Source of the DNA: Microlunatus sp. Gsoil 973
GTDB taxonomy: Bacteria > Actinomycetota > Actinomycetes > Propionibacteriales > Propionibacteriaceae
Assembly: GCF_009707365.1 (NCBI RefSeq)
Contig: NZ_CP046122.1
Span: 868,001 to 932,000, forward strand
DNA length: 64,000 nt
Direction of reading: 5' to 3'
Notes under the pieces: generated by a model
Databases searched by the model: none
What the model was told of the DNA's origin: nothing
Seen by the model: the letters and a program-made list of their open reading frames with translations, nothing else
Made by a program: the position numbers and the translations under genes
Shown here: piece after piece, positions 532-6,129 of the stretch
How positions within the stretch are numbered: position 1 is the first letter of the stretch
Layout of the letters: the number at the start of each line of letters is the position of its first letter

Positions 532-1044
532 ATGAGTGAGTCCACGACGACTCGACCGGTCACCGGTGAGGAGCAGCGCGCTGTTTCGGCTGCGGCGAAG
601 GCGGCTGAGCCGGATCAGAAGCAGTTGGATGATCTACACACGATTTTGGGCGATACGACCATTGCGGACACCGTGGTGCAGAAGATTGCCGGTCTTGCTG
701 TACGGGAGGTGCCGGGCGTGTACGCGATGGGCAATGTTGCTCGACGCGCGTTCAACAATCTGTCACAGCGTGTTCCCGGCACCGGGCAGCCGAGTGTGAC
801 TGGTGGGGTCGCGGTGCAGAAGGGTGAGCGAGAGACCGCCATCGATGTGTCGATCGTTGTCGAGTACGGCGCTCGGATCGCCGAGGTGTCGCAGGACATT
901 CGGGAGAACGTCATCCGGGCTGTCGAGGGCGGTACCGGGTTGTCGGTGGTGTCGGTTGATGTCGATGTCACGGACGTTCATCTGCCCGAGGATGACGACG
1001 ATTCCGCTGGTGGTCAGACCAGCTCTGATGAACAACTCCGCTGA
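532..1044 (+). CDS. Asp23/Gls24 family envelope stress protein (first copy)
   Basis: A 170-residue soluble protein with a central Asp23/Gls24 domain (about residues 40-155; TVVQKIAGLAVREVPGV then a beta-rich segment ending VVSVDVDVTDV) and an acidic C-terminal tail. Asp23 proteins of Gram-positive bacteria gather at the membrane through the anchor AmaP and take part in envelope homeostasis. I chose the ATG at 532 because AAGGAG lies 6 bases upstream (520-525); an in-frame ATG at 493 lacks such a site. It is the first gene of an operon that also encodes an AmaP-like anchor and an ECF sigma factor. Confidence 0.88.
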   Translation: MSESTTTRPVTGEEQRAVSAAAKAAEPDQKQLDDLHTILGDTTIADTVVQKIAGLAVREVPGVYAMGNVARRAFNNLSQRVPGTGQPSVTGGVAVQKGERETAIDVSIVVEYGARIAEVSQDIRENVIRAVEGGTGLSVVSVDVDVTDVHLPEDDDDSAGGQTSSDEQLR

Positions 1045-1159
1045 GTTTCCCGGTCGCGTGAGCGGGCCGGCGCCGATCTCTCAGACTGACCGGTCGGCGT
1101 TTGGACTTTCCGACGAGTTCGGTAGGTCGAATCCATCGACCGGTGTCAGGAGGATTGAA

Positions 1160-1342
1160 ATGTCTCGTACCACGATTGCCTTGTTTGTCGGGCTCGTTCT
1201 GGGCGTGACGGCGGCGTTTGGTGGCTTCGGGCCGTTCTTGATTGTGGCGGTGTTCGGTGCGGTCGGTTTGATCGTCGGGCTGGTTCTGGATGGCCGGATC
1301 GACTTGCCACGTCTGCTGGGTCGGGCGACGGAGCGCCGATGA
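1160..1342 (+). CDS. Small membrane protein, DUF2273-like, of the Asp23 operon
   Basis: A 60-residue protein that is almost entirely two hydrophobic helices (residues 5-22 and 24-43) with a basic tail. The ATG at 1160 follows a strong CAGGAGG site. Small DUF2273-type membrane proteins of this size commonly sit between Asp23 paralogues and amaP in Gram-positive bacteria. Its stop overlaps the ATG of the next gene (ATGA at 1339-1342), so translation is probably coupled. The family assignment rests on size, topology and position; a membrane-anchoring role is inferred. Confidence 0.72.
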   Translation: MSRTTIALFVGLVLGVTAAFGGFGPFLIVAVFGAVGLIVGLVLDGRIDLPRLLGRATERR

Positions 1343-1773
1343 TGTCCACCGGGATCAGGTATCCGAGCGACGATGGTCGGCTGGGTGCGGGCGGGTCTGG
1401 GCCGGAAGTGCCCGCGCGGTTGCGTGGTCGGGTACAAATCCCTGAGCGGGTGGTGCAGCGGATCGCGGCCCAGGCTGCTTCCGAAGTGGCCGCCTCCGGT
1501 GGTCGATCGGGCGGTTTCCTTGGTATCGGCGAGCACACCGACCTGGATGCGCGCCCGGAGGTCAAGGTCGACTTGTCCAGCGATGCAGTCCATCTGGCGA
1601 TCGAGCTGGCGGTGGAGTATCCGACGTCGCTGCGGTCAGCAACTCAGCGGGTCCGAGATCATGTCACCGAGCAGGTGCAGCAGCTGACGGGGATCGGTGT
1701 CGGCCGAGTCGACATCGACATCGTTGCCGTCGGGGAACGCAGACAAGAGCAGAGCGCGGGGGCCTTGCGATGA
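1339..1773 (+). CDS. Asp23/Gls24 family envelope stress protein (second copy)
   Basis: A 144-residue Asp23/Gls24 protein: a disordered N-terminus, then VQIPERVVQRIAAQAASEV and the typical amphipathic strand-helix-strand block ending GIGVGRVDIDIVAVG. It is more divergent than the first copy, having a Gly/Ser loop (SGGRSGGFLGIG) near residues 52-63. Start and stop overlap the flanking genes by four bases (ATGA), so the five genes from 1160 to 3025 are nearly gapless. By family it should be a cytoplasmic, membrane-recruited scaffold. Confidence 0.82.
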   Translation: MMSTGIRYPSDDGRLGAGGSGPEVPARLRGRVQIPERVVQRIAAQAASEVAASGGRSGGFLGIGEHTDLDARPEVKVDLSSDAVHLAIELAVEYPTSLRSATQRVRDHVTEQVQQLTGIGVGRVDIDIVAVGERRQEQSAGALR

Positions 1774-2348
1774 CCCGCCGGGCACCCGGGCTGCAGCGTC
1801 GCCCCAGCCGAACCGTGCCGGCATCGATCGCTGCCGGTGTGCTGACAGTCGCCGGTGTGTTGATCGTGCTTGTCGGCGTTTGGCGCCTGATCGACGGTAC
1901 GTGGCCGGCACCGGCGCAAGCTGTCCTGGGGTACCTGGCCAAGATCTCGTGGGGATCCACCGGCTGGTTGATCTTCTGTATCGGCGCAGCCGTTCTCGGC
2001 CTGATCATGATCATCGCCGGCGCCACACCGGGCCGCTACAACGCTGCCCGCATCGGCACACGTATCGGCACAGGCTCCACGCCTGGCACGACGCCCGAAA
2101 CGGAGTTCGTGATCAGCCGCCGGGGCATCGCCCGGCTCGCGGCAGCCCACGCGGATCTGGTCGATGGGGTGGAGTCGGTGACGGTCAAGGCCGGCGCCCG
2201 GCGGGTCCGGGTCTCGGTCGGCACCACATCTCGGCACACGGGCGACATCGCCCAAGCCGTCACCGTCGCAGTCCAGGCCGCGTTGACCGATGCCGGACTC
2301 AGCCCGGTGCCGCGGATCAACACCACGGCCTGGACGAAGGAGATCTGA
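1770..2348 (+). CDS. DUF6286-like membrane protein with an Asp23-like C-terminal domain
   Basis: A 192-residue protein with two transmembrane helices (about residues 17-38 and 64-86) followed by a roughly 90-residue cytoplasmic domain. That domain has the helix-strand-strand-helix-strand pattern seen in Asp23 (ISRRGIARLAAAHADLVDGV, then VRVSVGTTS and a final helix). Proteins of this design are found in actinobacterial Asp23/AmaP operons. It overlaps both neighbours. I infer that it anchors the Asp23 proteins at the membrane together with the next gene product. Confidence 0.7.
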   Translation: MTRRAPGLQRRPSRTVPASIAAGVLTVAGVLIVLVGVWRLIDGTWPAPAQAVLGYLAKISWGSTGWLIFCIGAAVLGLIMIIAGATPGRYNAARIGTRIGTGSTPGTTPETEFVISRRGIARLAAAHADLVDGVESVTVKAGARRVRVSVGTTSRHTGDIAQAVTVAVQAALTDAGLSPVPRINTTAWTKEI

Positions 2349-3025
2349 TGCGCTACCTCGCCTCCGGGGTCAATCGCGCCTGGCTGATCATCATCGGAGT
2401 GGTGTTGCTCGTTGCCGGGCTGCTCGGGACGCTGATTTCGCAGGACGGACTGCAACAGGCCGCAGCAGCAATCGGCCTGAACCTGAACCGTCCCGGCCCC
2501 GATGACACCATTCTTAGCCCCGCGGCTGTCTCTTGGCTGAATGATCCTCTGGGCGTGCTCAGCGTGATCATCGTCGGTGTGCTGTTGTTCCTCGCCGGGC
2601 TGGCATGGCTGGTCCGTCAGATTCCGCGGCGCGGGTTGGCTCAACCGTTCCGCTTGCACGACGACGTCCGATCCGGCATCACCCAGGTGGACAGCCAAAC
2701 AGTGTCTGATGCCGTGCGTCGGCAGGTCGAGTCGTTTCACGACGTCAGCCAAGTCGTAGCCCAGCTACGCGGCACTGCGCGGGACCCCGAACTCAGCCTC
2801 AAAGTCACAGCCGACGAACGGGCCGACATCGGCCAGCTGCTCAGTCTCATCCAGACAACCGTGATCGCTGACCTGCAGACAGCATTGGACACCGACGTAG
2901 CCCGGCTCGCAGTCCAACTGGAGATCGGTCGCGGACATACCAGCGCCGGCCACGTCACCCTCCCCGCCGGCCCATCCACCAGCGCACCAGCCATCACCAG
3001 CACCGGACGCGGAGCACGAACGTAG
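2348..3025 (+). CDS. amaP: AmaP-like alkaline shock response membrane anchor
   Basis: A 225-residue protein with two transmembrane helices (about residues 10-28 and 70-92) and a cytoplasmic domain from about residue 100, including LKVTADERADIGQLL and a C-terminal Ser/Thr/Ala-rich tail. This is the topology of AmaP, which tethers Asp23 to the membrane. The ATG at 2348 shares one base with the preceding stop. The gene for the ECF sigma factor follows after a 136-base gap. The name is by analogy; sequence identity to firmicute AmaP is likely low. Confidence 0.7.
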   Translation: MRYLASGVNRAWLIIIGVVLLVAGLLGTLISQDGLQQAAAAIGLNLNRPGPDDTILSPAAVSWLNDPLGVLSVIIVGVLLFLAGLAWLVRQIPRRGLAQPFRLHDDVRSGITQVDSQTVSDAVRRQVESFHDVSQVVAQLRGTARDPELSLKVTADERADIGQLLSLIQTTVIADLQTALDTDVARLAVQLEIGRGHTSAGHVTLPAGPSTSAPAITSTGRGART

Positions 3026-3161
3026 AGTGAACAAGGGAGCCCAGTCGCGTTCGCGACGGACCGGCAGCCATTCAAGCTCGCGCACGGCACACCGCCAACT
3101 GCCCCTCGTCATGCCGTCCCTGGTCCAGCGCATGGGCACCCGCAAGGCAGAGGAGGGCCAG

Positions 3162-3767
3162 ATGAGCCCCACAATTGCCAGTCCGCCCGGTCCCACGGCG
3201 CAACACCGTCCTGTGGAGTCGGTGAACTGGGATGAGACAACACTGGTCGTCCGCGCCCAGGCCGGAGAGGTTGCCGCCTTCGAATTTCTCGTCGACACCT
3301 ATGAGGCACCGCTGTACCGACTCGCGGTCCGCCTCTTGCGGAACCGCACGATCGCCGAGGACGTGCTGCAAGAAGGATTCATCGCCGCCTGGAGGAAACT
3401 CCCGACCCTGAACGCACCCGAAACGTTCAGAGCATGGATCTACCGGATCATCACCCGCCGGTGCCTGGACCAACTCCGCGCAAGCCGCGACCAGCTCCAA
3501 CTCGACGAGACCAACGGCGGAAACACCACCAGAGCCGGTGATACCGACCCGGCCATCACTGTCGAGACCGAGCAGCTGCGACACAGCCTCAACCGCGCCC
3601 TCACGGATCTTCCGCCGCAACTCAGAGTCTGCTGGATCCTCACCGAAGTCGACCAACTCAGCTATGCCGACATCTCCCAAGTGCTCGACCTGCCGGTCAG
3701 CACCGTACGCGGGCGGCTCGCACGCGCGCGCCACCAACTCGCCGAAGGAATGGCCTCATGGCGATGA
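3162..3767 (+). CDS. ECF-type RNA polymerase sigma factor
   Basis: A 201-residue sigma-70 family protein with only regions 2 and 4. Region 2 covers roughly residues 30-100 (FEFLVDTYEAPLYRLAVRLL through DVLQEGFIAAWRKL, then the DNA-contacting WIYRIITRRCLDQL). Region 4 covers roughly 140-198 (LPPQLRVCWILTEVDQLS, then the helix-turn-helix YADISQVLDLPVSTVRGRLA). I chose the ATG at 3162 because GAGGAGG lies just upstream; the frame is open to 3027 without a better site. The last 10 bases overlap the next gene, which encodes a zinc-finger candidate anti-sigma factor. Targets probably include this operon, but no promoter was identified. Confidence 0.9.
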   Translation: MSPTIASPPGPTAQHRPVESVNWDETTLVVRAQAGEVAAFEFLVDTYEAPLYRLAVRLLRNRTIAEDVLQEGFIAAWRKLPTLNAPETFRAWIYRIITRRCLDQLRASRDQLQLDETNGGNTTRAGDTDPAITVETEQLRHSLNRALTDLPPQLRVCWILTEVDQLSYADISQVLDLPVSTVRGRLARARHQLAEGMASWR

Positions 3768-4381
3768 CCAACCACGCGAACCCGCAAGGACCACGTCAGC
3801 ATGACGCGTTCCTGCCCTGCGGCCGATCCGTGGATGAAACCTGGGAAAACATCAGCCAGCCGCCCGACCCACACCAGCTCACCTGCCCGTTCTGCCGCGA
3901 TGCCCGCGCCGCCCTGCAACGGCTACAGCAGGCGACCCAGGACCTCCTCGCCCACGACACAACCGATCCCGACTTCCACGTCAGCCCACGAATCAAGAGA
4001 TCGGTGCTGGAGGTCGCCCGCAACGAAGCCCGCCGCAGCCGGATGCTTCCCCTGATTCAACCGAGCATCGGCCAGCCCAAGCCGACCCTGACCATCAGCG
4101 AACTCGAACTATCCAGCCAAATCCGCGACGCAGCCGATCAACTGCCCGGAATCCACGCACGCCGCTGCGTCGTCACCATCGACCCAACCGGCGACACGAG
4201 TCAGCACACGGAGAAACCGGCATCCATCACCATCAACCTGCGGACCGCCGTCAGCGCCCAAACCAACATCCCCCAAGCCATGACCCAGCTACGCCGAACC
4301 ATCATCGACCGAATATCCCGCCGGGCCGGGCTAACCGTCACCACCATCGAGGTGCACGTGGAGGACATCTACGATGCCTGA
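3758..4381 (+). CDS. Zinc-finger (ZAS-type) anti-sigma candidate fused to an Asp23-like domain
   Basis: A 207-residue soluble protein. The N-terminus carries C21 and then H39-x3-C43-x2-C46, the exact HX3CX2C signature of ZAS anti-sigma factors such as RsrA, with the fourth ligand at similar spacing. A linker follows, and residues about 105-205 form an Asp23-like unit (ISELELSSQIRDAADQLPGI through TVTTIEVHVEDIY). It overlaps the sigma gene by 10 bases, the classic sigma/anti-sigma arrangement. I infer that it holds the sigma factor inactive and senses the state of the Asp23-AmaP assembly through its own Asp23-like half. No transmembrane helix is present. Codon choice is rich in A and C compared with neighbours. 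Confidence 0.75.
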   Translation: MAMTNHANPQGPRQHDAFLPCGRSVDETWENISQPPDPHQLTCPFCRDARAALQRLQQATQDLLAHDTTDPDFHVSPRIKRSVLEVARNEARRSRMLPLIQPSIGQPKPTLTISELELSSQIRDAADQLPGIHARRCVVTIDPTGDTSQHTEKPASITINLRTAVSAQTNIPQAMTQLRRTIIDRISRRAGLTVTTIEVHVEDIYDA

Positions 4382-4724
4382 CCCCATCCACCCACCCCAG
4401 CCGACCAGTCCCACCCCGATCCCGGAACTGGCCCAGATCATCACCGACGCGATCAGCGCGACAACCGGCGTGCACCGCATCGAAGCCAACCTCGCCCAAG
4501 CGATCGGCCACCTTCACCGATCAACCCCAGCCCAAAACAGCCAAGTCATCCTCACCCAAAGACCAACACGCACCAACGCAAAACTCGACATCAGCATCCT
4601 GACCAACCAAACGGCATATCAAACAGCCCAAGACGTCCGACGCACGATCAACAACCTGCTGACCAGACACGGCCACACCCCCGGCACCATCACGATCAAC
4701 ATCATCAAAATCTGCGTCACCTGA
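4374..4724 (+). CDS. Small Asp23-like protein ending the sigma operon
   Basis: A 116-residue protein with a Pro-rich N-terminus (DPIHPPQPTSPTPIPE) and then a compact alpha/beta unit: ELAQIITDAISATTGVHRI, a strand around KLDISIL, helix TAQDVRRTINNLL and the final strand GTITINIIKI. This mirrors the Asp23 pattern of the upstream proteins, without the zinc finger. It overlaps the previous gene by eight bases and shares its A/C-rich codon use, unlike the G/C-rich start of the operon. The function is unknown; it may compete with or complete the Asp23 assembly. Confidence 0.6.
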   Translation: MPDPIHPPQPTSPTPIPELAQIITDAISATTGVHRIEANLAQAIGHLHRSTPAQNSQVILTQRPTRTNAKLDISILTNQTAYQTAQDVRRTINNLLTRHGHTPGTITINIIKICVT

Positions 4725-5400: not shown

Positions 5401-6129
5401 ATGCGTGCGCAGGATCCCGGGGACAGATTTGCTGCGGTTGCCCGCGAATTGGCCGACCTCCCGGCCGGCGACGTACTCGACCGCGTGGCCGAGCTCGCTG
5501 TCGAGGTCATTGACGGCTGCGACCATGCCGGCGTCAGCCTGGTCCACCGAGGCAAAATCACGACCGTCGCCGCCACCGACGAGGTCGTCGTCACTGGCGA
5601 CAAGCAGCAGTACGCCTTCAACGAGGGACCCTGCCTCCAAAGCCTCGGCGAACACGAAACGGTCAGCTCCCCCCAGTTGAGCACTGATGACCGGTGGCCA
5701 AGGTGGGCCCGGTGGGCAACTGAACACCTGGGAATTGGCAGCATCCTCTGCTTCCAGCTGTTCACCAGCGAGCATTCCTACGGCACCCTGAACCTGTATT
5801 CAGACCGGGTCATCGCCTTCGACGGCCACGACGAGGCTGTCGGTTTGGCATTGGCCGCGCACACAGCGGTGGCAATCGCGGCCAGGCAGTCGATCGAGGG
5901 CCTCTCCAGCGCCGTCCGAAGCCGGACCGTGATCGGTCAAGCCGAGGGAATCTTGATGGAGCGTTATCAACTGTCGGCCGCACAAGCCTTCGCCGTGTTG
6001 GTCAGAGTCTCACGCGATGAGAACCGCAAGCTGATCCGGATCGCCGAGGAACTCGTCGACACACGGAAGACTCCCGGGACTCCAAACTCGTCTGCATCAA
6101 CGCCAACCGTCGACCCCCGAACAGGCTAG
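5401..6129 (+). CDS. GAF-ANTAR transcription antitermination regulator
   Basis: A 242-residue regulator with an N-terminal GAF sensor (about residues 10-165; FNEGPCLQSL and YGTLNLYSDRV are typical) and a C-terminal ANTAR RNA-binding domain (about 172-227; VIGQAEGILMERYQLSAAQA). ANTAR proteins bind paired RNA hexaloop hairpins and prevent termination; the actinobacterial GAF-ANTAR type is common. A ligand is not evident. No obvious operon partner exists: the next gene lies on the other strand more than 300 bases away. The ATG at 5401 has no strong Shine-Dalgarno sequence. Confidence 0.88.
   Translation: MRAQDPGDRFAAVARELADLPAGDVLDRVAELAVEVIDGCDHAGVSLVHRGKITTVAATDEVVVTGDKQQYAFNEGPCLQSLGEHETVSSPQLSTDDRWPRWARWATEHLGIGSILCFQLFTSEHSYGTLNLYSDRVIAFDGHDEAVGLALAAHTAVAIAARQSIEGLSSAVRSRTVIGQAEGILMERYQLSAAQAFAVLVRVSRDENRKLIRIAEELVDTRKTPGTPNSSASTPTVDPRTG

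Follow-up and report, generated by a model that had tools for sequence, protein, structure and literature searches.

The window analyzed here, a stretch of 64,000 nucleotides of Microlunatus sp. Gsoil 973 (contig NZ_CP046122.1, positions 868,001 to 932,000), carries on its plus strand, between positions 532 and 4724, eight tightly spaced genes that read as one operon, in which Asp23 and AmaP proteins are encoded together with an extracytoplasmic function (ECF) sigma factor and with a protein, named here ZAS-Asp23, that joins a zinc anti-sigma (ZAS) type region to an Asp23 unit (Table 1). A first-pass annotation of this DNA had described such an operon, and all of its genes were found, each starting with ATG and ending at a stop codon in frame. 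In the interpretation that we favor, with a confidence slightly above even, ZAS-Asp23 would be an anti-sigma factor docked on a coat of Asp23 and AmaP, and the coat would release the sigma factor.

Asp23, AmaP and DUF2273, the members of the asp23/amaP operon, are all present, the last of them under its cut-off in the window; DUF2273 is a component of the asp23 operon of Firmicutes, and the Cutibacterium counterpart of the small protein matches PF10031 over the cut-off (E 4.4e-8). The start of the DUF2273-like gene is at 1160, which corrects an earlier reading, and the sigma factor gene most likely starts at ATG 3162, preceded by AGAGGAGG and preferred by eye over GTG 3027. From the coordinates, the sigma factor and ZAS-Asp23 genes overlap by 10 bp, and the ZAS-Asp23 gene and that of the short Asp23-like protein by 8 bp. 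The closest solved relative of the ECF sigma factor is SigW (5WUQ, E 1.2e-21). At E ≤0.001 the genome holds three PF03780 matches, all of them inside this operon.

Table 1. Genes of the operon and the neighboring gene, in window coordinates
Feature	Position	Strand	Evidence
Asp23 protein 1, 170 aa	532..1044	+	PF03780 E 3.6e-26
DUF2273-like small membrane protein, 60 aa	1160..1342	+	PF10031 E 4e-4, 20.8 bits, under the cut-off of 25.4
Asp23 protein 2, 144 aa	1339..1773	+	PF03780 E 6e-12
DUF6286 membrane protein, two transmembrane-like segments	1770..2348	+	PF19803 E 2.2e-22; hydropathy
AmaP-type membrane anchor, two transmembrane-like segments	2348..3025	+	NF033218 E 1.6e-16, 60.5 bits, cut-off 55; hydropathy
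ECF sigma factor, 201 aa	3162..3767	+	Sigma70_r2 7e-19, Sigma70_r4_2 6.9e-12
ZAS-Asp23 protein, 207 aa	3758..4381	+	ZAS-type region ~19-95, Asp23 unit ~103-207; ligands, hhalign
Short Asp23-like protein, 116 aa	4374..4724	+	PF03780 E 0.017 alone, 15.9 bits, far under the cut-off
GAF-ANTAR protein, downstream of the operon	5401..6129	+	ANTAR E 1.8e-17

The two halves of the ZAS-Asp23 protein

The ZAS ligands that the first-pass annotation had named, C21, H39, C43 and C46, are all in place and form the zinc signature of a cysteine followed by HxxxCxxC, in a protein in which hydropathy reveals no transmembrane-like segment. A DNA pattern of this signature, written from the ZAS-Asp23 family itself, has one match in the window and none in 100 shuffles. 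Compared with RsrA and Asp23, as had been proposed earlier, the protein shows a solid resemblance to Asp23 and a weak one to RsrA; yet when the ZAS region is set against a profile of 18 RsrA-type proteins from the genome under study and its relatives, the four ligands fall in register and the score of 25.9 exceeds that of every one of 300 decoys with shuffled columns, the best of which reaches 22.4. An NCBIfam anti-sigma model matches seven of the 48 family members at E ≤0.01 and none of 21 canonical Asp23 proteins at the same threshold, and a second anti-sigma model matches one member. Pfam families of the ZAS type are matched at E ≤0.01 by none of the 48, one of which matches zf_C2H2_10 at 0.0092.

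For the C-terminal half, hhalign identifies an Asp23 unit (96.6%, E 4.7e-10), as had been noticed earlier. The Pfam Asp23 model gives the window protein alone 25.6 bits against a cut-off of 28, and PF03780 reaches E ≤0.01 in 29 of 48 family members; for the short protein, the family hidden Markov model (HMM) matches canonical Asp23 at 5.6e-17. Both the C-terminal half and the short protein are thus of the Asp23 type despite Pfam scores below the cut-off, because their family profiles match. Asp23-type sequence occurs in six of the eight genes of the operon, namely those of the two Asp23 proteins, ZAS-Asp23, the short protein, DUF6286 and AmaP: the DUF6286 family aligns with the ZAS-Asp23 family at an hhalign probability of 86%, and every one of the 21 canonical Asp23 proteins has a match to the NCBIfam AmaP model at E ≤0.01, the Asp23 of the window scoring far under its cut-off. 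Among solved structures, canonical Asp23 gave three matches, all weak and none convincing.

Linkage of sigma factor and ZAS-Asp23 across actinomycetes

The sigma/ZAS-Asp23 pair is recurrent across actinomycetes and is no oddity of this locus. Homologues of ZAS-Asp23 are found at E ≤0.001 in 36 of 196 genomes of the order, in eight of 29 genera, and in a sample of the phylum, among the matches listed, at least nine of 396 genomes have matches that span both halves, the remainder of the 148 matches being largely C-terminal halves or canonical Asp23. A search of named genomes with the ZAS DNA pattern returned at least 119 stretches, at least 68 of which carry the family at ≥60 bits, including loci of Streptomyces, Nocardia, Amycolatopsis, Lentzea, Pseudonocardia, Kribbella and Tersicoccus. 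Among the 68 named loci listed, which are preselected by that pattern, 64 have a sigma factor gene immediately upstream in the same orientation (three of the other four are near the end of their stretch, and in L037 the sigma factor gene is farther away) and 58 have a short Asp23-like gene downstream (of the ten without it, seven lie close to where their stretch ends). The overlap with the sigma factor gene recurs in 32 of 33 loci and in 47 of 59 named proteins, a total that includes three for which no measurement could be made.

The order and orientation of these modules vary among the compared loci: the arrangement is divergent in Streptomyces, Kribbella and Tersicoccus, the sigma cassette comes first in Nocardia, and both the window and Cutibacterium have the sigma factor after AmaP. 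In two relatives of the genus of the window (L292 and L293), two sigma/ZAS-Asp23 cassettes and two Asp23/DUF6286/AmaP sets adjoin one another, partly divergently. On a Streptomyces plasmid (L035, 8208-12182), next to the asp23/sigma locus lie genes with STAS, ATP-binding and PP2C phosphatase annotations, reminiscent of a partner switch of the SigB type.

A second comparison concerned a sample of the class, in which a family-profile search of 394 genomes gave 80 loci, defined by the listed matches of ≥49 bits and one N-terminal-only match of 39 bits; the sample includes the locus of the window and two loci from one relative of its genus, and leaves aside lower-scoring matches, largely canonical Asp23. 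In 48 of these loci a sigma factor gene is adjacent and in 32 it is not, one of the 32 having, at another place in its stretch, a frame weakly resembling a sigma factor. Of the 48 sigma-adjacent loci, 31 (30 by regular expression, L223 by eye) have the full ZAS motif, and of the 32 sigma-less ones none has it, a contrast for which Fisher's test on 30/18/0/32 gives 1.5e-9, with all loci lacking sigma in one genus. The anti-sigma assignment made at first sight is supported by this absence of the ZAS motif where the sigma factor is absent, by the gene overlap and the co-occurrence, and by the weak, above-shuffle resemblance to known ZAS proteins.

Of the 17 sigma-adjacent loci that lack the complete motif, one has a sigma::Asp23 fusion, described below, and 16 encode unfused proteins, of which four have three cysteines and no histidine, one has the first cysteine changed and eleven, by eye, retain at most one ligand. 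Zinc therefore looks dispensable in part of the family. The Asp23 unit is retained in 15 of these 16 proteins (L290 was matched in its N-terminal part alone), so that the Asp23 part is a more common constant of the family than the zinc site. These counts bear on an alternative that we consider unlikely, in which ZAS-Asp23 would work as a redox switch like RsrA, oxidation of the ZAS cysteines freeing both zinc and sigma factor, and the Asp23 half would merely dimerize or stabilize the protein. Intact ligands in the window protein and, counting it, in 30 of 33 homologues agree with such a switch; the loss of the motif in sigma-adjacent proteins that keep the Asp23 unit argues against it, as does the separate RsrA-type protein encoded in the same genome.

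The gene content of the loci also bears on another possibility, which we hold to be rather unlikely, namely that ZAS-Asp23 is an anti-sigma factor that, with the short protein, would form a cytosolic dimer of the Asp23 type, respond to some other signal and never enter a membrane coat. It fits with the sigma-less loci, where in 31 of 32 cases the two Asp23-like units are fused, the short-type unit following the other in frame (in L276 it lies in another frame), and with a Microbacterium plasmid that carries sigma factor and ZAS-Asp23 and on which HMM searches found no other Asp23 gene within 12.6 kb. Against it stands the presence of a canonical Asp23 gene within the examined stretch in 49 of the 68 named loci listed, many of the others being incomplete stretches.

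In two species of a single genus, the sigma factor and an Asp23-like unit are joined in one open frame, a natural sigma::Asp23 fusion (genomes G723, locus L240, and G1003, locus L323). The protein has 326 residues in G723. Neither fusion has an internal stop or a ZAS motif, and over residues 1-318 they share 71% identity. Judged by eye, both are preceded by an AmaP-like gene, and the one in G1003 is followed by a short Asp23-like gene. Full-length matches at E ≤1e-20 occur in G723 and G1003 alone among 200 genomes of their family. To our reading of these sequences, the fusion is the most direct sign that the sigma factor and an Asp23-type unit may act together.

Candidate mechanism, promoter element and weighing of the evidence

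From gene order, domains, co-occurrence and fusions we infer the following sequence of events. The N-terminal ZAS-type domain of the soluble ZAS-Asp23 protein would hold the co-encoded ECF sigma factor, and its C-terminal Asp23 unit, probably together with the short Asp23-like protein, would dock on a sub-membrane coat of Asp23, AmaP, DUF6286 and DUF2273. A change of the coat during envelope stress or in stationary phase would loosen the grip on the sigma factor, which, once freed, would activate the asp23 operon. In this best interpretation, the coat would be the likelier sensor. The original idea that the Asp23 half couples the sigma factor to the Asp23 assembly gains indirect support, since the linkage is conserved, a sigma::Asp23 fusion exists and the Asp23 half outlasts the zinc ligands where these are lost. 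More tentatively, and at somewhat less than even confidence, we suggest a broader view in which the polymerizing Asp23 coat of actinomycetes would itself sense stress for an ECF sigma factor, wired to it via an Asp23-type subunit: through a ZAS linker in most lineages, without zinc in others and by direct fusion to sigma in one genus.

Autoregulation of the asp23 operon is inferred for the family from a shared element, CGTRACG, found on predicted intergenic stretches after an unsupervised dyad search had been swamped by coding sequence. In loci less than 60% identical, it lies upstream of asp23 in 11 of 18 and upstream of the sigma factor gene in 13 of 25, whereas in segments drawn at random from these loci the means are 1.0 and 1.6 and the highest values 4 and 5; the element was chosen after inspection of overlapping or related loci, and the gene starts are predictions. 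A stricter pattern, GGRAAA-N13-17-CGTGACG, was searched in eight genomes: its matches fall at the asp23 locus in one of one case in G107 and two of four in G042, and off this locus in the genome of the window (2), G062 (5), G005 (1), G366 (1) and G302 (3); there is none in G116, and the reversed pattern gives three matches over the eight genomes. CRP-like palindromes, GTGATGTGCATCAC and GTGACGTGCATCAC, were also observed between asp23 and sigma factor genes, in the intergenic stretch of L042 and L050.

Several observations weigh against an anti-sigma factor docked on the coat. The hhalign probability for RsrA is weak (49% for the ZAS region, 30% for the full-length profile), six-frame genome searches with the RsrA model and with Pfam zf-HC2 miss the window protein, and at E ≤0.01 five unrelated-looking NCBIfam models each match one family member too. 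When the family profile is compared with solved structures, its best match is RAD50 (E 0.015), followed by 3HUG_B (0.063), and both are weak; 3HUG is the zinc anti-sigma factor RslA with SigL. The sigma-less loci of the class sample all belong to one genus, probably Streptomyces, so few events underlie the contrast in ZAS content; a mirror-tree analysis over 40 loci did not discriminate (r 0.91 for sigma-Asp23, 0.87 for sigma-ZAS-Asp23); and exact CGTRACG is absent upstream of the asp23 and sigma units in the window. The Microbacterium plasmid mentioned above belongs here as well.

The weak or failed matches to established anti-sigma models and the lack of a ZAS motif in the sigma::Asp23 fusions would also suit a protein that is not an anti-sigma factor, and that instead either serves sigma as an adaptor or positive cofactor or belongs to the coat and merely shares the operon. 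We judge this improbable in view of the ZAS motif, the gene overlap and the disappearance of ZAS where sigma is missing. Summed over the coat-docked, redox and cytosolic alternatives, all of which assign it that function, an anti-sigma role of ZAS-Asp23 appears likely, with high confidence.

Comparison with known systems

The idea of anti-sigma factors of the Asp23 family is not new, since ECF286 and ECF292 adjoin soluble Asp23-family proteins for which this role was predicted without experiment (Casas-Pastor 2021, cited in PMC8999054, accessible portion). The ECF sigma factor of the window likewise adjoins a soluble Asp23-family protein, which differs from those, as described in that portion of PMC8999054, in having a ZAS domain, unmentioned there. 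The putative direct coupling of sigma factor and Asp23, at first regarded as unusual, is both widespread and of a kind already predicted, and the finding is consequently less singular than the first-pass annotation held; the comparative evidence in turn sharpens its proposal. In the literature searched, among the papers listed, we found neither a ZAS-Asp23 protein nor a sigma::Asp23 fusion, nor any mention of the presence or absence of ZAS in step with the sigma factor, which is weak evidence of their absence from print given that most subscription papers fell outside the search.

ZAS-Asp23 shares with the ZAS anti-sigma factors RsrA, RslA and ChrR the Cys...HxxxCxxC arrangement and a gene placed right after that of the sigma factor. 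Unlike in these, its second domain is Asp23, neither a cupin nor a membrane segment, and the sequence likeness is weak.

A known counterpart of the whole operon is the PPA0387-0394 cluster of Cutibacterium acnes (P. acnes), in which the eight genes stand in the order seen in the window, Asp23 being the first and sigma the sixth. This cluster, which includes the alkaline shock protein PPA0387 and RpoE PPA0392, is reported to be up in stationary phase, the only regulation described for it in the excerpt of PMC3124536 at hand. A published PPA0387 primer (PMC11264938, excerpt) matches G062 exactly, and both primers lie inside the first Asp23 gene of L304, a locus with the identical eight-gene order, sigma sixth and the DUF2273 gene included.

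In Staphylococcus aureus, according to the part of PMC6954212 available, Asp23 is attached to the membrane via AmaP and oligomerizes, the loss of either protein induces the cell wall stress response, and what Asp23 does at the molecular level is unclear. The operon of the window has Asp23 and AmaP in common with the asp23/amaP system of S. aureus and adds to it the ECF sigma factor and the ZAS-Asp23 protein; if an anti-sigma factor of the Asp23 type did link a sigma factor to the coat, this would give the coat a role in signaling and offer a simple reporter readout.

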